Below, in pieces: positions 50,566 through 63,884 of a stretch of 64,000 nucleotides of DNA. The DNA is taken from contig MHAZ01000017.1 in NCBI GenBank assembly GCA_001803165.1, forward strand, positions 186,001 through 250,000, read 5' to 3'. Source of the stretch: Stygiobacter sp. RIFOXYC2_FULL_38_25. GTDB taxonomy: Bacteria > Bacteroidota > Ignavibacteria > Ignavibacteriales > Melioribacteraceae. The notes under the pieces are model-generated. The model ran no database searches. It worked only from the letters and a program-made list of their open reading frames with translations, and had not been told where the DNA came from. Every line of letters begins with the position of its first letter. Within the stretch, counting starts at the first letter, position 1. Made by a program: the position numbers and the translations under genes.

Positions 50566-51381
50566 CTACAACTTCCTAAAAATATATACGTCTTGCCGCA
50601 AGTGCGGGTTTTCGTTTCCTTCTTGGTAACCGACAAGTTCAAATCCCTCTAAAAGATTTTCAGTTGTCCATTTGTATGATTGATAACTGCTGTATTTGTT
50701 ATCACCTTCACCAAAGGAATTGTGAAGGACAATTTCATCGCGGTTGAATTGTTCTTGCTCTGTTTTGCTTAGTGGCGCTATTGTAACTTTACCATGAGTT
50801 GTAAAGTAAAGAAGTCCGCCCGGCTTTAGAATGCGCTTCAATTCACCAATCCATGTAAGCTGAAGTTCTTTGCCGAGATGAGTAAATACAGAACGCGCGT
50901 AAATTAAATCGAAAAAGTTATTCTCGTAACTCAAAGGGGGGACCAGATTGTTAGTAGCGAATTTGCCGAATGTTAAGTTTTTATCACACCAAGAAATCAG
51001 TTCGTGATTCAAATCCGAACCAAATAGATTGTATTTATTTTGTGCCGCAAAGTGGCGGATAATTCTTCCGCAGCCGCAGCCAAAATCCAGAACGTTAGCT
51101 TTCTCCGGCAATTCAATTTTGTGCTCTGCAAGCATTGCACTCATATCGTCAAAAATAATTTTGCCCGATTTATAAAACTCGCTCACCCACGGAATTGCGA
51201 TGATAGTAAAAATCAGCTTTGAGGACGGATAAGTAAATCCATCCGGTAAACCTTTAGCGCGGCATTTCATTTCCTCTTTCAGCAAATCCGGTGAAAGAGT
51301 TTTTGCGCTGTTATAAACCAAACGCAGTGAATCTTGCAAACTTTCACTCTTAACTATTTTCTTTATCAGTTGCTTTATCAT
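50566..51381 (-). CDS. class I SAM-dependent methyltransferase
   Basis: This 271-residue protein has the methyltransferase motif I VLDFGCGCGRIIRHF (97-111), motif II acid LFGSDLNHELISW and motif IV FFDLIYARSVFTHL, followed by LKPGGLLYFTTHG. It methylates an unknown small molecule or protein in the cytoplasm. A Cys-rich variant of the glycine loop (GCGCGR) is common in this group. The start overlaps the MFS transporter gene by 32 nt, so the two are co-transcribed and perhaps functionally linked. Confidence 0.85.
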   Translation of the reverse strand: MIKQLIKKIVKSESLQDSLRLVYNSAKTLSPDLLKEEMKCRAKGLPDGFTYPSSKLIFTIIAIPWVSEFYKSGKIIFDDMSAMLAEHKIELPEKANVLDFGCGCGRIIRHFAAQNKYNLFGSDLNHELISWCDKNLTFGKFATNNLVPPLSYENNFFDLIYARSVFTHLGKELQLTWIGELKRILKPGGLLYFTTHGKVTIAPLSKTEQEQFNRDEIVLHNSFGEGDNKYSSYQSYKWTTENLLEGFELVGYQEGNENPHLRQDVYIFRKL

Positions 51382-52561
51382 TCTTAATCCAAATTATATA
51401 AAAGAGAATTGCGGCTGCTAAAATAGTTCCGCTGCCCACAAAAGAAAAACTCAATCCAAACGCTGAAACAATATACCCGGCAGTTATTGGACCGGCTAAG
51501 TTGCCAATCATCTGAAAGCTTGACCCGATACCCATTACACCAGCCTTTCGTTCGTGCTCAGTTTCATTGCTCATAAGAGAATATATTAAAGGTAGCACAA
51601 CACCAAGTGCAAAACCAAGGACAAATAAAACCAAAGTGAATGTAAAGATATCTTTTAGAAAGTTCAGGCATAGAAATGCAGCGGCTGAAATTATAAATGC
51701 CAGAAGCAAATTTTTCCGGGAAGAAATTATTTTATTTAGTGCCGGAAGCAGTGCCACAGATAGCGCACCGGCTCCGCCGAACAATCCTAATAAAATTCCG
51801 GAAATAGAAGCTTGGTTTTCCAATCCGCCAAATTGCTGATGAATGTATAATGTGAAATTTGGTCTCATCATTGTTACGCTGAGTGTGTAAGCTAATAGCA
51901 TTATGCCGCAAACGACTAACCATTTCTTCGCTGTAAAGTATTTAAAATTGTTTGCAAGAGAATTGTATTTGGCTTCCGTAACCACTTTTTGTTCTTTCAC
52001 AAAAAACAACACCGGTAAGGAGGTTGCGGAAACTAGAATAGCCACAATAATAAACACGGTTCTGAAACCAAAGACATCGGCTAGAATTCCGCCTAAAACC
52101 GGACCGGCAATATTCCCCAAAGCATTTGCAAGTTGAAGATAACTCAGCGCATCGGTTGTTTTTCCCTTGGGAGAATTTGCGGCAGTTAACGAAATAGCAG
52201 CCGGATAGGCACCGCCAAATAATTCTTGGATTGATGATGCGATGAGTAAAAAGGTTAATGAAGAAGAGAAGCTCATAGAGAGCTGCGCAATAACAAATCC
52301 CGCGATTGATAAAAGTGTAGTTAGTTTTCTACCATATTTATCACCAATGCTTCCCCAAAAAGGTGTTGTGAAAAATGAAACGATGAATGGGGAAGCGAAA
52401 ATCCATCCACTCCATAGTGCGGTTGATTCAACATTTGTACTTCCGAGTTCTTGCACAAAAAGAGGAAGGAAAGGAATTAAGCTTCGTGTGCCGGCTCTAT
52501 AAAAAAATTGGCTGATAAAAAGCGCGTAAAGATTTTTCTTCCAAGAATTATCTGGTGTCAT
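51350..52561 (-). CDS. MFS transporter
   Basis: This 403-residue protein has twelve predicted transmembrane helices and the MFS A-motif GSIGDKYGRK in the loop after helix 2. SYLQLANALGNIAGPVLGGILAD is typical of drug/H+ antiporters of the DHA1 class. The ATG at 52561 (MTPDNSWKKN) is chosen over an upstream TTG at 52612, which would add a polar N-tail. It is divergent from the xanthine dehydrogenase genes with 130 nt between starts. The substrate is unknown; it may export a drug or a metabolite. Confidence 0.85.
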   Translation of the reverse strand: MTPDNSWKKNLYALFISQFFYRAGTRSLIPFLPLFVQELGSTNVESTALWSGWIFASPFIVSFFTTPFWGSIGDKYGRKLTTLLSIAGFVIAQLSMSFSSSLTFLLIASSIQELFGGAYPAAISLTAANSPKGKTTDALSYLQLANALGNIAGPVLGGILADVFGFRTVFIIVAILVSATSLPVLFFVKEQKVVTEAKYNSLANNFKYFTAKKWLVVCGIMLLAYTLSVTMMRPNFTLYIHQQFGGLENQASISGILLGLFGGAGALSVALLPALNKIISSRKNLLLAFIISAAAFLCLNFLKDIFTFTLVLFVLGFALGVVLPLIYSLMSNETEHERKAGVMGIGSSFQMIGNLAGPITAGYIVSAFGLSFSFVGSGTILAAAILFYIIWIKNDKATDKENS

Positions 52562-52691
52562 AAGCTGCAATTGAGTTGCAGTAAAATTAACTTTTTGATT
52601 TCCGCATTCCAAAACGTTAATTTTTGTGTAGTTAGATTGTTCTTACTAATTGCTGAACCGATCGTGGAGCGATAATTCCACCGAGGTCTAA

Positions 52692-54107
52692 ATGATAGAA
52701 TTCATTCTCAACAACAAACACATTACTGCTGATCTTCCTCCAACAACTGTTCTTCTCGATTTTATCCGAAGAGAATCCCAACTAACCGGAACAAAAGAAG
52801 GCTGCCGCGAAGGTGATTGCGGGGCTTGTACTGTAATTCTTGGATCGCTTGACAAATCGAAGCTGAATTATAAATCTATTAACTCTTGTTTAATGCCCCT
52901 TGCCGATGTTCATGGAAAACACGTTGTAACTATTGAAGGAATTTCTCCGCAGACAAATAATCCGGATGAACTTTCGCCAATTCAGCAAGCAATGGTGGAA
53001 GAGGGCGGAACGCAATGCGGATTTTGTACGCCCGGTTTTGTCGTTTCAACCACTAATTATTTTTTGAATGAAACAAAGCCGGAAGTAAGCGGCGCAATAA
53101 ATTCACTTGGCGGGAATATTTGCCGCTGCACCGGCTATGCCGGAATAATAAGAGCAGTTGAAAAATCTATTGAAGCTTACAACAAGAGCGAGAAAAAAAG
53201 TAATAATTACAAGAGATTAATTGAAGCTCGTTTCATTCCGGAATATTTCTTAGAAATCCCTAAGCGGTTGAAACTTATTAAGAAACAACAGACAAAGAAG
53301 AAACAAGCTGAATTCCTTGTTGGTGGCGGAACCGATCTTTATGTTCAACGCTGGGAAGAGTTAGTTCAGACGGAAAGTCAGTTCGTCTCAAATAAAAATG
53401 TTAGCTCTGAAATCAAAATTGAAAAAGGGAAAATCGTACTTGGCGGCGCGGCAACTATTCAGCAAATTTTAGAATCAAAAATATTTAAGAAGTATTTCCC
53501 TTCGTTAGCTTCACAGTTGGAATTATTCGGCTCACTGCCAATTCGTAACAGAGCTACAGTTGCCGGAAATATTGTTAATGCTTCTCCAATCGGGGACTTA
53601 TCCAACATTTTACTTTCGCTTGATGCAAGCGTTCATCTCGCGGGAAAATCAAAGCGAGTTGTTCCGTTAAGAAAGTTTTATTTAGGCTATAAAACACTTA
53701 CCAAAAAGAAAGCGGAAATCATTGAGAAAATTTCCTTTGCGATTCCGCCAAAACACTTTTTCTTTAATTTCGAAAAAATCTCTAAGCGGACTTATCTTGA
53801 TATTGCAAGTGTGAATACAAGCATCGCTTTGGTTGCTAAGAATGGAAAGATTGAATCAGCCGGAATTTCTGCTGGAGGAGTTGCGCCAATTCCATTGTAC
53901 CTAACGAAGACGTGTGAAGCTTTGGTTAATAAAGAAATTAAAACTGATTTGCTTAAATCAGTTGTCCAGGTTGCGGCAGAGGAAATTTCTCCGATCAGCG
54001 ATGCACGCGGTTCTGCCGAGTATAAGCGTCTCTTGCTGCGCCAGCTAATTTATTCTCATTTCATTTTGCTCTTTCCCGAAAAAATTAATGTGGAGGAATT
54101 GTTATGA
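52692..54107 (+). CDS. xdhA: xanthine dehydrogenase-type small subunit (2Fe-2S and FAD domains fused)
   Basis: This 471-residue subunit has two 2Fe-2S centres: Cys38, 43, 46 and 66, and Cys109, 112, 144 and 146 (CGFCTPG and CRCTGY). An FAD domain from about 205 has LVGGGTDLYVQ and NRATVAGNIVNASPIGD. It passes electrons from the molybdenum site to NAD+ or another acceptor. The layout is that of bacterial XdhA (about 460-490 residues). Its ATGA overlaps the large-subunit gene by 4 nt. It opens the putative purine block. Confidence 0.93.
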   Translation: MIEFILNNKHITADLPPTTVLLDFIRRESQLTGTKEGCREGDCGACTVILGSLDKSKLNYKSINSCLMPLADVHGKHVVTIEGISPQTNNPDELSPIQQAMVEEGGTQCGFCTPGFVVSTTNYFLNETKPEVSGAINSLGGNICRCTGYAGIIRAVEKSIEAYNKSEKKSNNYKRLIEARFIPEYFLEIPKRLKLIKKQQTKKKQAEFLVGGGTDLYVQRWEELVQTESQFVSNKNVSSEIKIEKGKIVLGGAATIQQILESKIFKKYFPSLASQLELFGSLPIRNRATVAGNIVNASPIGDLSNILLSLDASVHLAGKSKRVVPLRKFYLGYKTLTKKKAEIIEKISFAIPPKHFFFNFEKISKRTYLDIASVNTSIALVAKNGKIESAGISAGGVAPIPLYLTKTCEALVNKEIKTDLLKSVVQVAAEEISPISDARGSAEYKRLLLRQLIYSHFILLFPEKINVEELL

Positions 54108-56377
54108 GAAATTACGATTCAATCCGCCACGTAAAAGGAGAATCCTACTTTATTGATGACTTGCGAATTCCGGAAGGAACATTGTATGGATACGTTTATT
54201 ACTCACCGATTGCTCACGGGAAAATTTTGGAAATTGATTTCTCTAAAGCGCTTCAATCGAAAGGTGTAGCCGGAGTTTATTCTGCAAAAGATATTCCGGG
54301 CGAAAATCAGATTGGCGGAATAATATTAGATGAAAATCTCTTTGCCGATGAGGAAGTACATTTCATCGGGCATCCTATTGCAGTTGTAGTTGCCGATACT
54401 TACTTGCACGCCAAAGAAGCTTCAAAAAAAATAAATGCTATCTATGAAAAATTAAAACCGGTTCTCGATCCCCGTGAAGCGGCGGAGAAAAATCTTTTAA
54501 TAATCCCCCCAAGAAAATTTGAGCTTGGCAACGTAGATAAAAGCTGGAGCGAATGCGATTATATTGTAGAAGGAAAAACTGACAGCGGCGGACAGGAACA
54601 TTTGTATCTTGAAACTCAAGGCGCGCTTGCAAATATTACTGAGAACGGTGGAATAAAAATTTCTTCAGCTACTCAAGGTCCTACAAATGTGCAGCGAATG
54701 ATTTCCCGCGTACTTGGTTTGCCGATGAGTAAAATTGAAGTTGATGTTCAGCGGCTCGGCGGCGGATTTGGCGGAAAGGAAGATCAAGCGACTGCTTGGG
54801 CTTGCATGGCTGCTCTTGCAGCATACAAACTTAAAAAGCCGGTTAAGATTGTTCTCAACCGTCAAGATGATATTCGCATTACAGGCAAGCGTCATCCATA
54901 CTCAAGCGATTTTAAAATTGGGTTGAGTAAGGAAGGAAAAATTTTAGCTTATGAAGCAACGTTCTATCAAAATGCCGGAGCTGTTGCGGATTTATCGCCA
55001 GCGATTCTGGATAGAACTCTTTTCCACGCAACAAATTCTTATTTCGTTCCGAATGTGAGAGCGACAGCGCTCAGTTGCAAAACTAATCTTGTTCCTTTTA
55101 CTGCGTTCAGAGGATTTGGCGGACCGCAAGGAATATTTGTTTTTGAATCGGCAATTTATAAAGCTGCTCAAGTGATGAATATTGAGCCGGCTGAAATCCA
55201 GAAAGCAAATCTGTTAATAGAAGGAGATGAGTTTTCGTTTGGACAGAAAACTTATCAATGTCAGGCTGAGAAAACTTTTTCTCAGATGGAATCGGATTTT
55301 GAACTTGAGAAAATTCAGCAAGAAATAAATTCTTTTAACGATTCCAACAAGCTCGTTAAGAAAGGTGCTGCTGTTATACCAATCTGTTTTGGTATTTCAT
55401 TCACAACAACATTTCTGAATCAAGCTTCTGCGCTTGTTCATATTTATACGGATGGAAGTATAAACATCAGCACAGCCGCAGTTGAGATGGGACAAGGTGT
55501 CAATGCGAAGTTGAAACATATTGCCGCAAAAACTCTGAATGTAGATGAAGCAAGAATAAAGATTGAATCAACAAACACTTCGCGAGTATCAAATACTTCG
55601 CCAACAGCAGCAAGCAAAGGAACTGATTTAAATGGTTTCGCAGTAATTGCCGCTTGCAATATTTTGATTGAGCGTTTGCAGAAAGTAGCCGCAGCAGAAC
55701 TTGGGCAAGATGACTTCACTAAAATAACTTTCAAGAATGAAAAAGTTTTTGATGAAGGCGAACCTACAAATCTAACTTTCAAAGATTTGGTGAACAAAGC
55801 TTACATGAAGAGAATCAGTTTAACTGCTCAAGCTTTTCACTCAACACCCGATATAAATTTTGATACGAAGACTAACAAAGGCAAACCATTCGCTTATCAT
55901 GTTTACGGAGCTGGAATTGTTGAGGTTACTGTTGATTGTCTTCGCGGAACCTATGAAGTTGATGCGATAAAAGTCATTCACGATTTTGGCGAATCATTTC
56001 ATAAAGTTATAGATCAAGGACAAGCTGAAGGAGGAATCGTTCAAGGAATTGGATGGATGACTTCGGAAGAACTCAGCTGGAATTCTGACGGACGATTAAT
56101 CACCGATGCGCTTTCTACTTATAAAGTGCCGGATATTCATGCGATGCCGAAAGAAATGAAAATTGAATTTCTGAAAGATTCACCAAATGATTTTGGACCG
56201 CTTCGCTCTAAAGCAGTCGGCGAACCGCCATTCTTGTATGGAATTGGAGTTTACTTTGCTCTGATGAATGCTATGCGCGCGTTCAATCCGAACATAGAAG
56301 TGAAATTTGATTCGCCGCTAACACCCGAAAAAGTTTTACTCACATTGTATGGTACAGATGTAGGGAAAGGTCTTTGA
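54104..56377 (+). CDS. xdhB: xanthine dehydrogenase-type large subunit, molybdopterin-binding
   Basis: This 757-residue subunit binds molybdopterin and hydroxylates the purine. GGGFGGKE is near 217-224, and AFRGFGGPQG near 333 holds the Arg that in bovine xanthine oxidase (Arg880) contacts the substrate. EMGQGVN also fits, and KAVGEPP at the C-terminus holds the catalytic Glu707 (bovine Glu1261). These features favour true xanthine or hypoxanthine use. The final codons (GKGL then TGA) lie within a REP palindrome at 56360-56387, which indicates that the end was altered by repeat insertion. Confidence 0.93.
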   Translation: MRNYDSIRHVKGESYFIDDLRIPEGTLYGYVYYSPIAHGKILEIDFSKALQSKGVAGVYSAKDIPGENQIGGIILDENLFADEEVHFIGHPIAVVVADTYLHAKEASKKINAIYEKLKPVLDPREAAEKNLLIIPPRKFELGNVDKSWSECDYIVEGKTDSGGQEHLYLETQGALANITENGGIKISSATQGPTNVQRMISRVLGLPMSKIEVDVQRLGGGFGGKEDQATAWACMAALAAYKLKKPVKIVLNRQDDIRITGKRHPYSSDFKIGLSKEGKILAYEATFYQNAGAVADLSPAILDRTLFHATNSYFVPNVRATALSCKTNLVPFTAFRGFGGPQGIFVFESAIYKAAQVMNIEPAEIQKANLLIEGDEFSFGQKTYQCQAEKTFSQMESDFELEKIQQEINSFNDSNKLVKKGAAVIPICFGISFTTTFLNQASALVHIYTDGSINISTAAVEMGQGVNAKLKHIAAKTLNVDEARIKIESTNTSRVSNTSPTAASKGTDLNGFAVIAACNILIERLQKVAAAELGQDDFTKITFKNEKVFDEGEPTNLTFKDLVNKAYMKRISLTAQAFHSTPDINFDTKTNKGKPFAYHVYGAGIVEVTVDCLRGTYEVDAIKVIHDFGESFHKVIDQGQAEGGIVQGIGWMTSEELSWNSDGRLITDALSTYKVPDIHAMPKEMKIEFLKDSPNDFGPLRSKAVGEPPFLYGIGVYFALMNAMRAFNPNIEVKFDSPLTPEKVLLTLYGTDVGKGL

Positions 56378-56387
56378 CCTTTCCTTA
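56360..56387. repeat. REP unit 1 upstream of the RAYT, overlapping the xdhB stop
   Basis: The stem GGAAAGGTC (56364-56372) and GACCTTTCC (56376-56384) around TTT is preceded by GTAG. It contains the TGA stop of xdhB. It has the same conserved bases as the units at 56681 and 56938: GGA, two variable, GGTCT, two variable, GACC, two variable, TCC. Confidence 0.8.
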
Positions 56388-56399
56388 ATTAATTGTAAA

Positions 56400-56933
56400 A
56401 TGGAAAATAAACTGCCAAATAGAAAACATTTGAGGCTAACTGGCTTCGATTATTCAAGCCCAGGATATTATTTCGTTACAATTTGTACGATGAATAAAGT
56501 TGAGTGGTTTGGAGAGATTTCCGGTGCAAGTGTAATTCTTAATGCTAAGGGAAAAATAGTTGAAGATTGCTGGTTTGATTTACAGAATCATTATCCAAAT
56601 TGTGAATTAGATTATTATGTAATTATGCCTGATCATTTTCATGGAATACTAATTTTAACCGAACGAGATATTAACTACTGGGATGGGTCTGAGACCCATC
56701 CTAAAAAGAGTAGGAACCACGGTCTATCAGAAATTATCCGTTCATTCAAATCTTATTCATCTAGAAGAATAAATGAATTGTCGGAAAACAAAAGCAAATT
56801 TAATTGGCAGACATCTTTCTATGATAGAATTATTCGAAATGAAAAAGAGCTTTATCAAATAAGAAAATATATTCAAGATAATCCCTTGAGAAAGGAATTA
56901 GAAAAAATACCCGAAAATTTAGGTGGTCTATAA
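56400..56933 (+). mobile_element. REP-associated tyrosine transposase (RAYT, Y1_Tnp family)
   Basis: This 177-residue coding sequence starts at an ATG 22 nt after the xdhB stop. The HUH motif is HFH at 79-81 (MPDHFHGILIL), and the catalytic tyrosine is probably Tyr157 in RKYIQDNPLR. YYFVTICT near the start and FYDRIIRNEKE are typical of RAYTs, which are single-copy domesticated relatives of IS200/IS605 transposases that process REP palindromes. REP units flank it in inverted orientation, and a third lies in its own coding region. It interrupts the xdhB-PLP gene order but leaves the reading frames whole. Confidence 0.9.
56681..56701. repeat. REP unit 2 within the RAYT coding sequence
   Basis: A perfect 21-nt palindrome, GGATGGGTCT then G then AGACCCATCC, encodes residues 94-101 (WDGSETHP) in a loop of the protein. 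It fits the same consensus as the two flanking units. Confidence 0.75.
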
Positions 56934-56937
56934 AAGA

Positions 56938-56962
56938 GGAACGGTCACAGACCGTTCCCTAC
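56938..56962. repeat. REP unit 3 downstream of the RAYT
   Basis: GGAACGGTC (56938-56946) and GACCGTTCC (56950-56958) around ACA are followed by CTAC. It is inverted relative to unit 1, whose GTAG is on the left, so the pair brackets the transposase. The PLP-enzyme gene begins 19 nt further on. Confidence 0.8.
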
Positions 56963-56981
56963 AACACCAAAAGGAGAAACA

Positions 56982-58472
56982 ATGGAAAGCTTTTCATGGA
57001 AATTGCAGAATGAAGACTATTTAAAGAAAACGATTAAACGGTGCCAAGAAAAAAAAATTATCCTTCCGAAGTTTAGTGAATTAAGAAATCCAGATTCGAT
57101 TACGCAAAAAATTAAAGACCAATTGCCAAAAGTTGGAATGCAAGACATCAATCCGCTTAACTTATTTAGAATTAATTGGCGCAACGATTCCAAGACCGGC
57201 AACATCGGCGAAATTAATTATCTGGAAATCCCATCTGAAATTACCGGCGTTAAAGCTCGCATTGTTGGATTAGTTGGAAAGTTCTTTCCAACAGGCGCGC
57301 ACAAAGTTGGTGCAACGTATGGATGTTTAGCTCCCTATCTTGTAACGGGAAGATTCAATCCGGAATATCACAAAGCTGTTTGGCCATCTACCGGAAATTA
57401 TTGCCGCGGCGGAGTTTTCAACTCCCGCTTGCTTGCGGTTGATGGCGTTGCAATTCTTCCTGAAGAAATGAGCAAAGAAAGATTCGATTGGCTAAAAAAT
57501 ATGGGCGCGGAAATTTATGCCACCTACGGCTGCGAAAGTAACGTTAAAGAAATTTATGATAAGTGTCATGAGTTAGAAAGAACAAGTGATCAGTATTTAA
57601 TTTTTAATCAGTTTGATCAGATGGGAAATCCAATCTGGCATTACGAAATTACCGGCTCAACAATTGAAACACTTTTTAATCAGATTAAAAAAGAGAATCA
57701 GCGCTTAAGCGGATACGTAAGCGCCACGGGCTCTGCGGGAACTATTGGTGCCGGCGATTATTTGCGTGAAATTTCTCCGCTAATAAAAGTTGCCGCTTCG
57801 GAAGCATTGCAATGTCCAACACTTTTATCAAATGGATACGGCGCGCACCGCATTGAAGGAATTGGAGATAAACATATTCCTTGGATTCACAACGTTAAAA
57901 ATACTGACGCGGTTGTAGCGATTGATGATGAAGACCCGCTCAGAATTTTGCGATTGTTTAACGATGCTGAGGGACAAAAATATTTGAAGCAGCTTGGTGT
58001 TGCTGAAGATACAATTGCAAAACTTCCTTGGCTTGGTATTTCCGGAATTAGCAACATTCTAAGCGCAATTAAACTAGCTAAGTATTTCGAAATGAATGAG
58101 AACGATATAATCTTTACAATCTTTACCGATTCCGTTGAGCTTTACGGCTCGCGTCTGGAAGAGATGAATCAGACTTGGGGAAAATATTCCGAACATCAAG
58201 CAGATAAAGATTGGTATTCCGTTCTCAAGAGACAGACAACTGATAATTTTGTGGAGTTAAGTTACCAAGACAAGAAGCGCATTCATAATCTAAAATATTT
58301 TACTTGGGTTGAGCAGCAAGGCAAAACAGTTGAAGAGCTTAATGAACAATGGTATAATGAAAATTATTGGAAGGAAAGATTTTCGGTTGTTCCACAATGG
58401 GATAAATTAATTGATGAGTTTAATACTCAAGTTGGAATTAAGAATGTCATTTCGAGCGAAGTCGAGAAATGA
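56982..58472 (+). CDS. fold-type II PLP-dependent enzyme (lyase or deaminase type)
   Basis: This 496-residue enzyme has the PLP lysine Lys108 in FFPTGAHKVGA, the substrate loop STGNYCRGGVF and the phosphate-binding loop TGSAGTIGAG at 249-258. It is longer than cysteine synthase or diaminopropionate ammonia-lyase (YgeX, about 400). YgeX is a PLP enzyme in purine clusters, so this may do a comparable step, such as deamination of a diamino acid, but homology at that level is not proven. It has an AAGGAG ribosome-binding site. The last codons (ISSEVEK) come from a repeat. Confidence 0.8.
   Translation: MESFSWKLQNEDYLKKTIKRCQEKKIILPKFSELRNPDSITQKIKDQLPKVGMQDINPLNLFRINWRNDSKTGNIGEINYLEIPSEITGVKARIVGLVGKFFPTGAHKVGATYGCLAPYLVTGRFNPEYHKAVWPSTGNYCRGGVFNSRLLAVDGVAILPEEMSKERFDWLKNMGAEIYATYGCESNVKEIYDKCHELERTSDQYLIFNQFDQMGNPIWHYEITGSTIETLFNQIKKENQRLSGYVSATGSAGTIGAGDYLREISPLIKVAASEALQCPTLLSNGYGAHRIEGIGDKHIPWIHNVKNTDAVVAIDDEDPLRILRLFNDAEGQKYLKQLGVAEDTIAKLPWLGISGISNILSAIKLAKYFEMNENDIIFTIFTDSVELYGSRLEEMNQTWGKYSEHQADKDWYSVLKRQTTDNFVELSYQDKKRIHNLKYFTWVEQQGKTVEELNEQWYNENYWKERFSVVPQWDKLIDEFNTQVGIKNVISSEVEK
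58447..58472. repeat. CATTTCGAG palindrome forming the end of the PLP-enzyme gene
   Basis: TCATTTCGAGCGA plus AGTCGAGAAATGA, 26 nt, is an imperfect palindrome whose last three bases are the TGA stop of the gene. It matches, with one mismatch, the inverted copy at 24615-24640. Confidence 0.75.
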
Positions 58473-58553
58473 TCAAAATGATCACGCTTTGTATCTTCGT
58501 TTCCACGAGCCGAAGCGGGCGATCAGTGCAGCATTAAATGATTCTATATAAGT

Positions 58554-58787
58554 ATGAAGAAAGAAAAAAGAAATAAAACAAGAAACGTTCTGGTTGTACC
58601 TGGAGTTAGCAAAGTAGAACCTTATGATATTCTTTTTGGTGAACGTACAAACGAAATTTTATTCAAAGCGGAGTACATGCATTCAAATGTAAATCCACAC
58701 CGTTCAAAGGAGTTACGTCTAACACGGCTGTTAAAGCAAGATTTGTTAACGGAAAACTTCAAAAGTTTAGAATGGAGTGAGCTATGA
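58554..58787 (+). CDS. 77-residue uncharacterised protein coupled to the SsnA-like gene
   Basis: This small basic protein begins MKKEKRNKTRNVLVVPGVSK, and no known domain is recognised. GERTNEILFKAEYMHSNVNPHRSKELRL looks conserved rather than random. Its ATGA overlaps the amidohydrolase start by 4 nt, which argues for a genuine gene translated with it. It contains no signal peptide or helix long enough to span a membrane. A role as an accessory or small subunit in the purine pathway is possible but unproven. Confidence 0.55.
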   Translation: MKKEKRNKTRNVLVVPGVSKVEPYDILFGERTNEILFKAEYMHSNVNPHRSKELRLTRLLKQDLLTENFKSLEWSEL

Positions 58788-60109
58788 AAAATAATATTAC
58801 TATCGAAAACGCCTGGATATGTTCTGTAATTGATTCCGAAGTACTCCCCTTCTTTGGCGATTTGCTCGTCTCAGAAGGAGTAATAACAAAAATCCGTCCA
58901 AAGAGTTTTGCATCATTTCAAAAAAATCCTACTAAAGTTGGCAAAGACTCTTACAACGCTTTTGGCAGAGTAGTTACTATCCCGCAAATAAATTTTCACG
59001 ATCACATTTACTCGCGCCTGGCAAAAGGCTTGCCGCTAAAGGGGAAGTTCGATTCATTCCAAAATGTTTTGAAAAATCTTTGGTGGAAGATTGACCGTGC
59101 GCTTGATTTGGAGATGGTAAAAGCGTGCGCGCAAGTTGCTGCGATTGATTCAATTCAAAACGGAGTTACATACATTTTCGATCATCATTCTTCGCAGAGC
59201 AAAATTGAAAATAGCTTGCAGACCATAAAAGATATTCTCGGAGAACACAAACTGCGCGGAGTTCTTTGCTTTGAAACTACTGATAGAAACAGCTCTGCTG
59301 ATGCTATAGCCGGACTTGCGGAAAATGTTTTATTTAAAAATTCCGATTCGAAAGACTTTAGAGCTATGCTTGGACTTCATGCTTCGTTTACTCTTTCGGA
59401 CGAAACTTTACTTGAAGCAAGGAAAGCACTTAAGAATGATTGGGGGATTCACATTCATGTTGCAGAAGATGAAAGTGATAATAAGCTGAGTATGGAATAT
59501 GCCGGGGCGCTTCCGGTCAGCCGTTTAAAAAAATATAAATTGATGAACGACAGAAGTATTCTGGTTCACGGAGTTCATCTTCAACAAAAAGATTATCTTA
59601 AAATATTGGAAGGGGAAAGCGCGTTGGCGTTTTGTTTGGATTCCAACATGAACAACTCTGTCGGTCTTCCGCAGTTTGCTAAAATACCGGATCCAATCCC
59701 TCTGCTTGTAGGAACGGATGGAATGCACGCTAACATTGCCGACTCACTAAAGCAATTGTTCTTGGTTGCACGTGAACAAGGTTTAACCACAGACAAAGCG
59801 CTGGCATTAATCAAAAAGATTTACTTTGACCAAATCACATTTGTGAAAAAATATTTTAATGATTTCCCTTCATTACTTGAAAAGGACCGGGCAGATTTTG
59901 TTATTTGGGATTATGTTCCGCCGACACCAATTAGTAAAGAAAATTTTTGGGGACACTTTATTTATGGTATGTTGGAATCTCGAATTATTAGTGTTGTTCA
60001 AAAGGGAAAGTTTTTAATGAGAGATTTTCAATTTACCGATGCGAACATTGATAAAATAAGAAACGAAATCTATGTTCAGGGAGAAAGGTTATATAACGCG
60101 TTAAAATAA
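58784..60109 (+). CDS. SsnA-like amidohydrolase
   Basis: This 441-residue protein belongs to the metal-dependent amidohydrolase superfamily. The first metal ligands are in NFHDH (His72, His74); others lie in HIHVAED (His near 225-227) and VHGVHL, with the Asp in LVGTDGMHAN. The layout and the purine setting match SsnA, the aminohydrolase of E. coli and gut anaerobe purine clusters (ssnA-ygfM-xdhD). It probably deaminates or hydrolyses a purine or a purine-derived ring. The start is coupled to the 77-residue gene. The exact substrate cannot be stated. Confidence 0.8.
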   Translation: MKNNITIENAWICSVIDSEVLPFFGDLLVSEGVITKIRPKSFASFQKNPTKVGKDSYNAFGRVVTIPQINFHDHIYSRLAKGLPLKGKFDSFQNVLKNLWWKIDRALDLEMVKACAQVAAIDSIQNGVTYIFDHHSSQSKIENSLQTIKDILGEHKLRGVLCFETTDRNSSADAIAGLAENVLFKNSDSKDFRAMLGLHASFTLSDETLLEARKALKNDWGIHIHVAEDESDNKLSMEYAGALPVSRLKKYKLMNDRSILVHGVHLQQKDYLKILEGESALAFCLDSNMNNSVGLPQFAKIPDPIPLLVGTDGMHANIADSLKQLFLVAREQGLTTDKALALIKKIYFDQITFVKKYFNDFPSLLEKDRADFVIWDYVPPTPISKENFWGHFIYGMLESRIISVVQKGKFLMRDFQFTDANIDKIRNEIYVQGERLYNALK

Positions 60110-60137
60110 TGTCCTTCTAAGAAAAGAAGAGAAATGA

Positions 60138-62516
60138 ATGAGCAAAGATTTTTCTATTGTCGGCAAATCGGTTATAAGAGAAGATGGATTTGAAAAGATA
60201 ACCGGAAGAGCCAAGTTTGCAGATGATTACAAATTTGACGGTATGTTGTTTTCGGTTATGCTTCGCGTTCCGGCAACACACGCTAAGATTAATTCAGTTG
60301 ATTTTTCCGCAATACAAAACAATCCTTCCGTAGCCTCAATTATAACTTCCCAAGATATTCCCGGCGCAAAGAAAATTGGAATGATTAAAAACGATCAGCC
60401 GGTTTTTTGTGATGAAAAAATAGTTACCCCCGGCGATGTTTTGGCAATGATAGTTGGCGAAGATGAAACTGAACTGCGCAAACTGTTAACAAAAATTAAA
60501 GTTGATTATACATCTCTTCCAACATTAACTGATCCAAAAAAATCTTTAGACCCGGACGCGCTGCTAATTCATCCAGAGTTTGGAAGCAATTTAATCGTTC
60601 ACCATCCTTTGCGAAAAGGGAATGTGGAAAAGGGATTTGCTGAGAGTGATGAAATTCTTGAACGGGTTTATACAACACAAACGATTGAACACGCATATAT
60701 TGAACCGGAAGCTGTGATTGCAATTCCGCTTGAAGATGGGGCTTTGAAAGTGATAGGTTCAATTCAAAATCCTTTTACAGTTCGAAGAATTGTTGCTTCC
60801 GTTTTGAATCTCCCGAATGAAAAAGTTCAAGTTGTGCAAGCACAACTCGGCGGTTCATTCGGCGGTAAAGATGATACAATGTGTATGCTATCAGCAAGAG
60901 CAGCTGTAGCAGCATTAAAGCTAAATCGTTCGGTAAAAATTCGTTACACACGCGACGAATCAATTTTAGAATCTTACAAGCGCCATCCATACATTCTAAA
61001 ATACAAAGTTGGGTTCAGCAAGATTGGAAAAATCAATGCAATGAAGATTGATCTTCTTGCTGATGGCGGCGCTTACTGCTCTATGAGTCCATTTGTTACA
61101 TGGCGTTCCGTTGTGCAAGCTACCGGTCCATACGAAATTGAAAATGTTCAGACAGATGTTCGCGCGGTTTATACTAACAATCCTTACACCGGCGCGATGC
61201 GGGGTTTTGGCTCGCCGCAGCCAATCTTTGCGCAAGAAACTTTGATGGATGAGATTGCTTTGCATATTGGTGTTACGCCAGATGAAATTAGAAGACGCAA
61301 CGGACTAAAGCTTGGCTCGGTAACTGCAACAGGACAAACTCTTAAAGAGCATGATGTGAATCTAATTCCGGTTCTAAACAAAGCTGTTTCGTTTACGAAC
61401 TTTGCGGAGAAGTGGAAAGAGAATAAAAAAAATCAAACCGGTTTAAAAGAATATTCTTTCGATCAACCGATATTTAAGGATGAGCAATTTATTTCATCTG
61501 AAAAACTTATTAAGAAGGGGATCGGTCTTGCAGTGAGTTTTCGCGGATGTTCTCTTGGCGCTGAAGGTTTAGATCAATCATCATGTTACATATCAGTTCA
61601 GCCGGATGGAAAAGTTGTTATGCTAAGCGGCTTAGCTGAAAACGGGCAAGGTTTACGAATGACTTTGTTGATGGCTGCCGCAGAAGAACTTGGTGTTACT
61701 GCAGATAAAATTATTTTTTTGGAAAATGATACTTCTAAAATTGAAGACAGTGGACCAACTGTTGCATCGCGCGGAACAATTATGGGAGCCGCTGCCGCTA
61801 AAAATGCGGCAGAGCTGCTTCGTAAACAATTAGAAAAAGTTGCTCGTGAAGTATCCAAACTTGATGAAACTGATTTTATTTCTTTCCGGGAAAATTTAGT
61901 TTTTTCAAGAAAGAAAGGAATGATTGCAAAGTTTGATGATGTTATAAAAGCTGCATTTGAAAACAAAGTTGAGCTTTCAGCAATCGGCAGATATAAAAGT
62001 CCGGATGTTAGCTGGGATGAGCACACCGGACAAGGCGATGCTTACTTCACCTACGTTTACGGCTGCCAGGTTGCGGAGGTAAGTGTTAACACTGGAACCG
62101 GAGAAGTTTATCTAAACAAAATTACCGCAGTTCACGATCCGGGTACAGTCATAAATAGGTTGGGCGCCATTGGACAAGTTTATGGCGGAGTTACACAGGG
62201 AGCCGGTTACGGAATTTTGGAAGAAGTAACTAATGAAGATGGAATGATACGTGAATTGAACTTCGATCAATACTTAATTCCAACTGCGAAAGACATTGAT
62301 GAAATAAAACCACTCTTCTTGGAAGGAAACGAAAAGTATGGCGCGTGGGGCGCAAAATCTTTGGGTGAACCAACGCTTGAACTTGGAGCGGCTGCAATTG
62401 CAAATGCTGTTTGCAATGCACTTGGCAAAAGATTCTACAATTTGCCGCTTAACTTAGAAGAAGTTTTACTTGGCAGAAAATTGCGTCCCCAAGACTTAAA
62501 GAGAGGGAGCTTATGA
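60138..62516 (+). CDS. molybdopterin-binding hydroxylase large subunit (XdhD-like)
   Basis: This 792-residue protein is a second molybdenum hydroxylase subunit. GGSFGGKDD is near 237, AMRGFGSPQP near 352 and GLAENGQG further on; KSLGEP near the C-terminus holds the catalytic Glu744. AMRGFG instead of AFRGFGG, and GGSFGGK instead of GGGFGGK, separate it from the 54104 enzyme and recall XdhD-type or nicotinate/purine hydroxylases. It is the first of three genes for a heterotrimeric enzyme. The CO dehydrogenase signature AYxCSFR is absent. Substrate unproven; a purine is likely from context. Confidence 0.9.
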   Translation: MSKDFSIVGKSVIREDGFEKITGRAKFADDYKFDGMLFSVMLRVPATHAKINSVDFSAIQNNPSVASIITSQDIPGAKKIGMIKNDQPVFCDEKIVTPGDVLAMIVGEDETELRKLLTKIKVDYTSLPTLTDPKKSLDPDALLIHPEFGSNLIVHHPLRKGNVEKGFAESDEILERVYTTQTIEHAYIEPEAVIAIPLEDGALKVIGSIQNPFTVRRIVASVLNLPNEKVQVVQAQLGGSFGGKDDTMCMLSARAAVAALKLNRSVKIRYTRDESILESYKRHPYILKYKVGFSKIGKINAMKIDLLADGGAYCSMSPFVTWRSVVQATGPYEIENVQTDVRAVYTNNPYTGAMRGFGSPQPIFAQETLMDEIALHIGVTPDEIRRRNGLKLGSVTATGQTLKEHDVNLIPVLNKAVSFTNFAEKWKENKKNQTGLKEYSFDQPIFKDEQFISSEKLIKKGIGLAVSFRGCSLGAEGLDQSSCYISVQPDGKVVMLSGLAENGQGLRMTLLMAAAEELGVTADKIIFLENDTSKIEDSGPTVASRGTIMGAAAAKNAAELLRKQLEKVAREVSKLDETDFISFRENLVFSRKKGMIAKFDDVIKAAFENKVELSAIGRYKSPDVSWDEHTGQGDAYFTYVYGCQVAEVSVNTGTGEVYLNKITAVHDPGTVINRLGAIGQVYGGVTQGAGYGILEEVTNEDGMIRELNFDQYLIPTAKDIDEIKPLFLEGNEKYGAWGAKSLGEPTLELGAAAIANAVCNALGKRFYNLPLNLEEVLLGRKLRPQDLKRGSL

Positions 62517-63379
62517 TAGATATAATGTGCGAAGTTCTCACTCCAAAAAATCTGGCAGAAGCTCTTCTGTTGCTATCTAGTGCAGATTCAACTACGAAAA
62601 TTCTAGCTGGCGGAACTGATGTTGTAGTTGGAAAAACTCAAGGATCGAAAAGATTTGCTGATGCAGAAACGTTAATTGATATTAATAGAATTGAAGAGTT
62701 AAAAGGAATTTCTGAGAAGAATGGAATGATTTCTATCGGGGCTGCTGCAACATTCTCAGAAATTTGTAAAAGTAAGTTGGTTGAAGAGAAACTTCCTTTA
62801 TTAAAGAAAGCTTCCAATACTATTGGAAGTTTGCAAATCAGAAATAGAGCCACTATCGCCGGAAACTTTGTAAACAACGCTCCTTGCGCGGATACAGTCC
62901 CAGCGCTTCTTGTTTATGATGCAAGCATCGAAATTAAATCGCAGACGGCAACAAGAAATGTTTCGTTGCAAGAATTTTTGCAAGGACCATACAAAACGCT
63001 TTTGCAGCAAGGCGAGTTGGTTACGCGAATTCTTATTCCGGTCCCTCAACAAAATTACGCTGGCGATTTCTACAAACTTGGCAGAAGACGCGCAGTTGCA
63101 ATCAGCCGCTTAACGTTAGCTGTCGTAATTCAGTTGAAAGAAAAGAAAATTGGCGATATTAGAATTGCCTCCGGTGCAGTCACTCCAATAGGAACTCGAT
63201 TCCCAAAACTGGAAGAATTTGCAATTGGACAAAAGATGACCGACAACCTTTGTCAAGAACTTGCAAAGAAAATGGGCGAAGAAGTATTAGCAGTAACGGG
63301 GTTGCGCTGGTCCAGTGCTTATAAGCTGCCGGTTGTTCAACAAATGTTTTATCAATTATTAAAGGGACTTGAGCGCTAA
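62513..63379 (+). CDS. FAD-binding subunit of molybdenum hydroxylase (YgfM/CoxM-like)
   Basis: This 288-residue subunit has the FAD-binding loops ILAGGTDVVV (about 31-40) and NRATIAGNFVNNAPCADTVPALL, and a C-terminal CO_deh_flav-like domain with DFYKLGRRRAVAISR and SGAVTPIGTR. It transfers electrons from the 2Fe-2S subunit to the external acceptor. Its ATGA overlaps the preceding gene by 4 nt. The ATG at 62513 is used; an in-frame ATG at 62525 is possible. In E. coli, ygfM has the same place between ssnA and xdhD. Confidence 0.9.
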   Translation: MIDIMCEVLTPKNLAEALLLLSSADSTTKILAGGTDVVVGKTQGSKRFADAETLIDINRIEELKGISEKNGMISIGAAATFSEICKSKLVEEKLPLLKKASNTIGSLQIRNRATIAGNFVNNAPCADTVPALLVYDASIEIKSQTATRNVSLQEFLQGPYKTLLQQGELVTRILIPVPQQNYAGDFYKLGRRRAVAISRLTLAVVIQLKEKKIGDIRIASGAVTPIGTRFPKLEEFAIGQKMTDNLCQELAKKMGEEVLAVTGLRWSSAYKLPVVQQMFYQLLKGLER

Positions 63380-63407
63380 TTGCTATGCGTTCGTTGATAA
63401 TAAAATT

Positions 63408-63884
63408 ATGGAAATTAAATTTGTTCTAAATGGAAAAGAAGTCGCGGCGGATATAAGTCCGAGCATTCGGTTGCTCGATTTGCTTCGCGAAAAATTTGAA
63501 CTGACCGGAACTAAAGAAGGATGCGGAGTTGGCGAGTGCGGTGCTTGTACGGTCTTAATGAATGGTAAAGCGGTTAATTCTTGTCTTGTACTTGCGGCAC
63601 AAGTAAACAACTCCGAAATTCTTACGATAGAAGGAATAACAAATGGTGAAGAGCTTCATCCTCTTCAAAAAAACTTTTTACTGAATGGAGCAGTACAGTG
63701 TGGTTTTTGTTCACCAGGAATGGTTTTGTCTTCTTATGCATTACTAGAAGAAAATCCCAATCCGACAGATGAAGAAATTAAAGACGCAATTGCCGGAAAC
63801 CTTTGCCGCTGTACCGGCTATAAACAAATTATTGATGCGGTGAAGCAGACTGCGAAAGAGTTAAAAGTGGAAGTAAAAGTATAG
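63408..63884 (+). CDS. 2Fe-2S subunit of molybdenum hydroxylase
   Basis: This 158-residue subunit has the two 2Fe-2S clusters expected for the family: Cys39, 44, 47 and 59 (plant-type) and Cys98, 101, 133 and 135 (CGFCSPG and CRCTGY). It completes the three-subunit enzyme that begins at 60138. The ATG at 63408 starts MEIKFVLNGKEV, the normal N-terminus; a TTG at 63369 would add 13 unlikely residues. It is 28 nt after the FAD-subunit stop and co-transcribed with it. Confidence 0.92.
   Translation: MEIKFVLNGKEVAADISPSIRLLDLLREKFELTGTKEGCGVGECGACTVLMNGKAVNSCLVLAAQVNNSEILTIEGITNGEELHPLQKNFLLNGAVQCGFCSPGMVLSSYALLEENPNPTDEEIKDAIAGNLCRCTGYKQIIDAVKQTAKELKVEVKV

Follow-up and report, generated by a model that had tools for sequence, protein, structure and literature searches.

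The 64,000-nucleotide stretch analysed here (the window) covers positions 186001–250000 of contig C17 of the Stygiobacter genome G000 (4.4 Mb, 22 contigs, 99.8% complete), and its right end carries genes for two molybdenum hydroxylases, a pyridoxal phosphate (PLP) enzyme and an SsnA-like aminohydrolase. We extended the contig rightward through locus L004 (G000:C17:249000–268999), whose 1001-base overlap with the window is identical. The window and 6.5 kb of this flank hold one same-strand cluster of 17.8 kb, from 52692 to 70490 on the window scale. It encodes XdhA/XdhB, a three-subunit molybdenum hydroxylase, SsnA, a UacX-type reductase, YgeY, a YgeW-like carbamoyltransferase, MocA and two PLP enzymes. 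Intergenic gaps range from −4 to 108 bp, with the sole exception of 311 bp upstream of ssnA. The pathway genes, all numbered on the window scale, are:

52692–54107, + strand: XdhA, fused 2Fe-2S and flavin adenine dinucleotide (FAD) subunit of xanthine dehydrogenase (TIGR02963, 360 bits; cut-off 467)
54104–56377, + strand: XdhB, molybdopterin subunit of xanthine dehydrogenase (TIGR02965, 783 bits; cut-off 849.5)
56982–58472, + strand: PLP496, fold-type-II PLP enzyme (PALP fold) of the cysteine-synthase/cystathionine-synthase group, 496 amino acids
58554–58780, + strand: hyuA relic, start-like and end-like pieces (blastn and shuffled-score test)
58784–60109, + strand: SsnA-like aminohydrolase, predicted to open the dihydro-2,8-dioxopurine ring (NF005540, 334 bits, cut-off 444; TIGR03314, 295 bits, cut-off 455.5)
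60138–62516, + strand: large subunit of the second molybdenum hydroxylase, proposed uric-acid dehydroxylase (XdhD role; pucD, 486 bits; cut-off 784)
62513–63379, + strand: FAD subunit of the second hydroxylase (YgfM/XdhB role; NF043083, 224 bits; cut-off 310)
63408–63884, + strand: 2Fe-2S subunit of the second hydroxylase (NF041020, pucE and NF043084 at 198, 195 and 191 bits; cut-offs 290, 254 and 217)
64951–66057, + strand: UacX-type reductase (DHO_dh and 4Fe-4S domains)
66157–67365, + strand: YgeY (TIGR03526, 401.9 bits; cut-off 321.5)
67474–68484, + strand: YgeW-like carbamoyltransferase (OTCace above cut-off)
68593–69840, + strand: PLP440, threonine-synthase-like fold-II PLP enzyme, 415 amino acids from its ATG
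69843–70490, + strand: MocA (below its curated NCBIfam cut-off)

The seven enzyme open reading frames (ORFs) that a sequence-only reading had placed at 52692–63884 on the + strand are all present, with the expected domains above Pfam cut-offs; in XdhA these are Fer2, Fer2_2, FAD_binding_5 and CO_deh_flav_C. That reading also reported YgeW, YgeY and YgfK as unseen. This is true of the window, because its edge falls inside the operon, but the rightward extension that the reading proposed recovers the UacX-type reductase (the YgfK counterpart), YgeY and the YgeW-like gene no more than 5 kb past the edge, as well as PLP440 and MocA. HyuA, reported missing as well, is absent from both the window and the extended cluster, where only its relic persists. 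The genes at 52692–63884 are best explained as roughly the first two thirds, from the left, of an operon-like cluster by which xanthine and uric acid would be degraded anaerobically.

In E. coli, XdhD-YgfM reduces uric acid to 2,8-dioxopurine, which YgfK dearomatises; SsnA and HyuA open the rings, YgeW and YgeY release the ureido groups, and YgeX cleaves the resulting 2,3-diaminopropionate, while C. difficile has UacX for YgfK (PMC12507026; PMC12990295). The text of PMC12507026 describes the gene sets of both species as proven uricolytic with purified enzymes, and gives DHO_dh, OTCace, Peptidase_M20 and PALP as the Pfam families of UacX, YgeW, YgeY and YgeX. All four families, together with 4Fe-4S domains, score above Pfam cut-off in the right-hand part of the cluster. 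We consider it likely that the cluster is a variant of this reductive uric-acid pathway (through 2,8-dioxopurine, or ‘yanthine’), published in 2025, with a HydA stand-in and with two PLP enzymes replacing YgeX. The assignment of the cluster is well supported; its gene content and order, the relic and the co-occurrence patterns are observed directly, and each reaction is proposed from homology to the enzymes of E. coli and C. difficile. XdhAB would convert hypoxanthine and xanthine to uric acid, and the three-subunit hydroxylase (60138–63884) would carry uric acid to 2,8-dioxopurine. The UacX-type reductase, a predicted flavin mononucleotide and iron-sulfur enzyme, would dearomatise 2,8-dioxopurine, and SsnA would open the first ring. 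HydA, encoded in a pyrimidine operon on contig C19, is the candidate for opening the hydantoin ring, a step we assign to it because hyuA has decayed here. The YgeW-like carbamoyltransferase and YgeY would strip two ureido groups to give 2,3-diaminopropionate, which PLP440 and PLP496, jointly replacing YgeX, may convert to pyruvate and ammonia.

The earlier suggestion of a purine cluster is borne out. Its companion proposal, a separate or branching pathway, is not supported: with the flank added, the steps of the known pathway all have candidates except those of HyuA and YgeX, and we dropped a separate purine pathway once YgeY, the YgeW-like gene and the UacX-type reductase were found. YgeY passes its curated model. 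The reductase is identified at the domain level only (DHO_dh, 99 bits, cut-off 27, plus the 4Fe-4S domains). For SsnA, two SsnA models lead by more than 200 bits (next family, 86 bits) yet remain below their curated cut-offs. The YgeW-like protein is 33.5% identical to E. coli YgeW and reaches 182.6 of 500 bits with TIGR03316; ornithine carbamoyltransferase models score higher than the YgeW model (225 bits, also below cut-off). Like these two proteins, both hydroxylases fall short of their curated cut-offs, which points to a divergent branch of the pathway.

Profile comparison of the large subunits, also suggested earlier, places both nearest xanthine dehydrogenase, and both below curated cut-offs. 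For XdhB, the first large subunit, this is by far the best profile, with TIGR02965 leading 13 families by a wide margin. The margin is not wide for the second large subunit, which contains MoCoBD domains and for which the best model, pucD, is closely followed by 4-hydroxybenzoyl-CoA reductase at 421 bits. In a tree of 32 sequences, built without support values and without characterised non-purine enzymes, the second large subunit groups with large subunits of ssnA-linked clusters in genomes G012, G104 and G124 and is separate both from the window XdhB and from the XdhA and XdhD proteins of E. coli. We propose that this second hydroxylase may act as the uric-acid dehydroxylase, in the role of XdhD. 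XdhD Glu606 was tried as a marker and rejected; its column lies in an alignment gap and therefore does not decide on that role. The UacX-type reductase has no FAD domain in the Pfam scan, which suggests another electron donor. It has no partner in the window cluster; in G104 and G124 a gene 31–32% identical to YgfK lies beside or near theirs. Speculatively, PreT of the pyrimidine operon might serve the reductase.

The 311-bp gap before ssnA holds start-like and end-like pieces of hyuA in two reading frames, the catalytic middle having been lost; the sequence-only reading makes no mention of this relic. At locus L006, from the same genus, an intact hyuA lies between PLP496 and ssnA (the identical HyuA occurs in G001), and the relic matches its 3′ end at 68.5% over 108 bp (blastn, E 9e-6). 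Scored against the termini of HyuA-cluster members longer than 440 amino acids, the N-terminal part of the relic reaches 73 (maximum of 200 shuffles, 51) and the C-terminal part 68 (maximum 53). Two other genes of the window genome match the L006 HyuA (E 0.001): HydA on C19 and one on C3. HydA scores 631 bits against the D-hydantoinase model TIGR02033 (cut-off 393), and its operon also encodes an aldehyde dehydrogenase, a CN-hydrolase, a class-III aminotransferase, PreT, PreA and an NCS1-type permease.

To place these genes in context, we used a set of 58 genomes (the window genome and 57 relatives), 31 with ssnA and 27 without. Operon-type HyuA was counted at ≥35% identity to the L006 protein and E 1e-40, and HydA at E 1e-60. 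Eighteen of the ssnA-positive genomes have an operon-type HyuA, one of them with HydA as well; of the 13 that do not, 12 have HydA. At the same threshold HydA is found in none of the 27 ssnA-negative genomes. This complementarity (12/13 versus 1/18) suggests that HydA has taken over from HyuA. Moreover, the HydA proteins of G000 and G004 share 92% identity, more than their PLP496 (76%) or SsnA (66%) proteins, as expected for a recent acquisition, and HydA is 41% identical to E. coli HyuA, compared with 28% for the L006 operon-type protein. HydA neighbourhoods were read in 11 of 13 genomes. Nine have pyrimidine genes, in operons that are complete or ended by the contig, and the flanks read in G005 and G021 hold no pyrimidine gene. 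The two sets of degradation genes are direct neighbours in G041, where the pyrimidine operon and the uric-acid genes occupy a stretch of ∼34 kb (L147/L148; G041:C15:111000–144900). The simplest reading suggested by these patterns is a hydantoinase shared by the pyrimidine and uric-acid pathways. Alternatively, another amidohydrolase or SsnA itself could open the hydantoin, with HydA co-occurring through shared ancestry or lifestyle. The pyrimidine setting in nine of 11 neighbourhoods, the relatedness of the genomes and the second amidohydrolase relative on C3 are consistent with this alternative. It is nonetheless rather unlikely in view of the complementarity, the HydA genes of G005 and G021 that stand apart from pyrimidine genes, the G000–G004 identity that looks like acquisition, and the closeness of HydA to E. 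coli HyuA.

The first PLP enzyme, PLP496, differs from YgeX, as the sequence-only reading had observed: the YgeX model TIGR01747 is absent from its matches at E 1e-5, and its alignment with E. coli YgeX spans 46 residues only. Across the whole window genome the best TIGR01747 score is 22.9 bits, against a cut-off of 274. YgeX exceeds the cut-off in three of the 58 genomes (G005, G013 and G026), always on a contig other than that of ssnA, and the roughly 20-kb stretches read around these genes hold no further pathway gene. PLP496, by comparison, occurs in 30 of the 31 ssnA-positive genomes and in 0 of the 27 others. In 26 of these 30 it shares a contig with ssnA, the other four being G026, G032, G042 and G055. 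In G028, the one ssnA-positive genome without PLP496, hyuA and ssnA start a 3.8-kb contig, exactly where PLP496 would be lost. A phylum sample of 148 genomes, seven of whose 15 positives are also among the 58, gives the same picture: PLP496 (E 1e-80) is present in 15/15 genomes with ssnA (TIGR03314, E 1e-50) and in 0/133 others, the two genes marking the same 15 genomes. Throughout the sampled genomes of the phylum, PLP496 is thus SsnA's strict partner. In G070 and G139 it lies off the ssnA contig but beside YgeW (G070) or YgeY and xdhAB (G139), and the order in G124 is ygeW-PLP496-ygeY, compared with ygeW-ygeX-ygeY in E. coli.

A scan of species genomes yielded at least 586 confirmed PLP496 relatives, of which 80 were kept as loci, many on short contigs. 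Linkage is conserved, as the earlier reading required: ssnA is present in 46 of the 80, at least one of ssnA, ygeW, ygeY, hyuA and ygfK in 56, and a molybdenum hydroxylase or PLP440 in nine of the remaining 24. No YgeX was found among the ORFs of these 80 often short loci, the two weak matches being PLP440 relatives. Ten PLP496 neighbours from five loci lacking ssnA (L044, L053, L058, L080 and L082) share no common theme; they include prephenate enzymes, an HAD phosphatase, DUF364, a poly-A polymerase and a phosphorylase. One further stretch, on a Bosea vaviloviae plasmid (L086, 15656–18127), contains a PLP496 homologue, a YgeX-like gene split into two ORFs, an M20 hydrolase, RidA and a TauE/SafE exporter. 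This context may tie PLP496 to diaminopropionate-type amino acids.

PLP496 belongs to fold type II by its PALP domain (51 bits, cut-off 35). YgeX, cysteine synthase and cystathionine synthase were considered as identities and ruled out by score (for the cysteine synthase model TIGR01139, 99 of 351 bits). Lysine K108 is invariant in 27 of 27 sequences and aligns with the Schiff-base lysine of cysteine synthase (CysK). The AlphaFold model has a predicted local distance difference test (pLDDT) score of 86.5, falling below 50 at residues 276–281 and 283–298 and at both ends. It matches cyanoalanine, cysteine and cystathionine synthases, the H2S-producing Fn1055/Fn1220, O-ureidoserine synthase and SbnA at Z 29–32 over about 280–320 residues, values too similar to rank; the model thus matches aminoacrylate-forming enzymes. 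The 50 fold matches listed include no YgeX or threonine synthase chain, which is no evidence against kinship. PLP496 shares with cysteine synthase, cystathionine beta-synthase, O-ureidoserine synthase and SbnA the fold II core, the Schiff-base lysine and the Thr-Gly-Asn loop, but it is only 16–25% identical to them in structural alignments, has N- and C-terminal extensions and a GAHK motif, and scores far below all family cut-offs.

PLP440 follows ssnA equally closely, with matches in 30 of the 31 ssnA-positive genomes (all but G043) and in one of the 27 others, G029, where by eye the gene adjoins an apparent flagellar operon. Relatives at 35–40% identity lie inside the ssnA clusters of G012, G070, G104, G124 and G139. 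PLP440 shares with threonine synthase a zinc-ribbon-like CxxC/CPxC N terminus (by eye), the SFKDR lysine motif and fold II, but falls below curated cut-offs (thrC, 154.7 of 167.1 bits; PRK08197, 215 of 303) and has replaced the equivalents of Arg160 and Asn188, which we take to be phosphate-site residues of threonine synthase. Compared with four solved threonine synthases (1uim numbering), the 22 PLP440 sequences have Thr (19) or Leu (3) at Arg160 and Asp (22/22) at Asn188. A housekeeping threonine synthase was considered for PLP440 and is unlikely by residues and co-occurrence. Its RNTAYNPLT stretch is similar to QDTAWEGYT of YgeX. Lys77 and Asp120 are named as potential catalytic residues of YgeX (PMC4000059); PLP440 has Thr at the Asp120 position in 22/22 sequences.

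According to PMC12507026, E. coli YgeX accepts both stereoisomers. In our preferred division of labour, PLP440, with its place in ssnA clusters and its loss of two threonine-synthase phosphate-site residues, would be the diaminopropionate lyase and PLP496 would act on a second form of the C3 product, either the other stereoisomer or a still-ureidated amino acid; a split of D and L, or of ureidated and free forms, over two enzymes would explain the retention of both. More specifically, we tentatively suggest that PLP496 may represent a new catabolic activity of the uric-acid pathway: in Ignavibacteria, Calditrichota and Bacteroidales the dual D/L specificity of YgeX may be split between a racemase or D-specific lyase and an L-specific lyase, or PLP496 may cleave the ureido-amino acid albizziin directly, and that uracil and uric-acid breakdown may share one hydantoinase. 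Direct albizziin cleavage, if true, would be a C–N lyase activity not met in the literature searched.

Several observations count against the uric-acid assignment and the parts given to its enzymes. SsnA, the YgeW-like protein, both hydroxylases and MocA all score below curated NCBIfam cut-offs, and only three of the 15 SsnA genomes of the phylum sample pass the SsnA cut-off. The second large subunit falls outside the E. coli XdhD group and has a gap region at the Glu606 column. Carbamate kinase, a uric-acid permease and the XdhC chaperone were not seen among the cluster genes, the rest of the genome being unsearched for them; carbamate kinase merely recovers adenosine triphosphate. G012, the one HydA-negative genome among the 13 counted as lacking HyuA, does carry in its cluster a HyuA-like protein (28% identical to E. 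coli HyuA) below our threshold, so distant HyuA proteins may have been missed in other genomes too. G005, G013 and G026 hold a true YgeX plus both PLP enzymes. The genomes are related rather than independent, and Fisher values for co-occurrence therefore overstate the evidence. Finally, 15 of the 80 PLP496 loci lack any pathway gene, some with long flanks (L045, L053, L072 and L082), and ∼44% identical homologues lie on two rhizobial plasmids whose 21-kb stretches, as read, show no SsnA; the role of PLP496 may therefore be wider.

One alternative makes PLP440 the sole diaminopropionate lyase and places PLP496 off the catabolic path, for example channelling the C3-N2 product into a cysteine-like or other beta-substituted alanine. 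By sequence and model, PLP496 is indeed nearest cysteine, cystathionine and cyanoalanine synthases, and the 15 loci lacking visible pathway genes fit as well. We find this alternative doubtful, since the strict co-occurrence with ssnA and the placement between ygeW and ygeY in G124 favour a catabolic step for PLP496. The converse, in which PLP496 by itself substitutes for YgeX while PLP440, a relative of threonine synthase, serves some unrelated function, would account for the ygeX position of PLP496 in G124 and for G043, which has ssnA and PLP496 and where PLP440 was not found; it is distinctly improbable given the equally close tie of PLP440 to ssnA, its presence inside five ssnA clusters and its differing residues at two threonine-synthase phosphate positions. 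Least probable of all is a cluster for xanthine/hypoxanthine oxidation or selenium-dependent hydroxylase metabolism only, with SsnA, YgeY and YgeW using another substrate: the SsnA and YgeY models bear ‘selenium metabolism’ names and PMC2276186, on selenium-dependent molybdenum hydroxylases, names ygeX and ssnA once each, but work with purified enzymes showed the sets of E. coli and C. difficile to be uricolytic (PMC12507026), and the two hydroxylases and UacX-type reductase match the uric-acid route.

Two further genes stand within the cluster:

56400–56933, + strand: REP-associated tyrosine transposase (RAYT; NF047646, 75.4 bits, cut-off 80; Y1_Tnp above cut-off)
63885–64949, + strand: DUF1016/YhcG PDDEXK nuclease (window to 64000; L004:886–1950)

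The RAYT gene, absent from the sequence-only reading, sits between xdhB and the PLP496 gene and is probably not part of the pathway. Short hairpins (56361–56387 and 56938–56958) flank it. It occupies the identical position in L005 and L006 and has therefore been retained for some time. The nuclease gene lies 0 and 1 bp from its neighbours inside the operon and has the same position in L006. Divergent from xdhA is a major facilitator superfamily (MFS) transporter of the MdtG/Tet-like group (51350–52612, − strand), whose position is kept in L005, L006, L007, L010 and L015; it is possibly a purine or product transporter. Two genes turn up repeatedly near PLP496, one for a 344-amino-acid protein that matches no Pfam family and one for an NTPase_1 protein of family PF03266 (L019, 6647–8181; L036, L039, L043 and L077), and the G012 cluster also carries an NTPase_1 gene.

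Compared with the E. coli uric-acid cluster (xdhD-ygfM, ygfK, ssnA, hyuA, ygeW, ygeY and ygeX), the window cluster has SsnA, YgeY, a YgeW-like protein, MocA, xanthine dehydrogenase and a second hydroxylase in common. It differs in having two other PLP enzymes and no YgeX, a decayed hyuA, a UacX-type reductase instead of YgfK, a separate 2Fe-2S subunit, a hydroxylase outside the XdhD group and no carbamate kinase in the cluster. With the C. difficile UacX/UacY variant the window cluster shares its UacX-type DHO_dh reductase, in which the Pfam scan shows no FAD domain, but it has a YgeW-like carbamoyltransferase rather than UacY and lacks HyuA and YgeX. Reductive pyrimidine degradation (PreT-PreA, HydA and beta-ureidopropionase) is analogous in its chemistry; its operon, on C19, is separate from the uric-acid cluster in the window genome and adjoining in G041, and its HydA may serve both.

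The biochemistry of the reductive uric-acid pathway was resolved only in 2025, in gut bacteria (PMC12507026). The phyla listed for SsnA in that paper exclude that of the window organism, and its main text lacks the words Ignavibacteri-, Bacteroidota and Bacteroidetes. The matches listed in a literature search on the pathway comprised two Life Metabolism papers, reviews and earlier studies of E. coli; no title among them concerned these PLP enzymes or Ignavibacteria in the pathway. Rather than a new route, the best reading of the cluster is that of a known pathway in a real and conserved variant form, with reactions predicted from its genes. It would extend the reductive uric-acid pathway to environmental bacteria, the PLP496 loci including groundwater and mine records, and it names two uncharacterised PLP enzymes that any pathway model for the phylum must explain. 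The hyuA relic documents gene loss with a likely stand-in from pyrimidine degradation. The variant also bears on two questions raised for the field in PMC12990295: in which order the ureido groups are cleaved and what stereochemistry the intermediates have.

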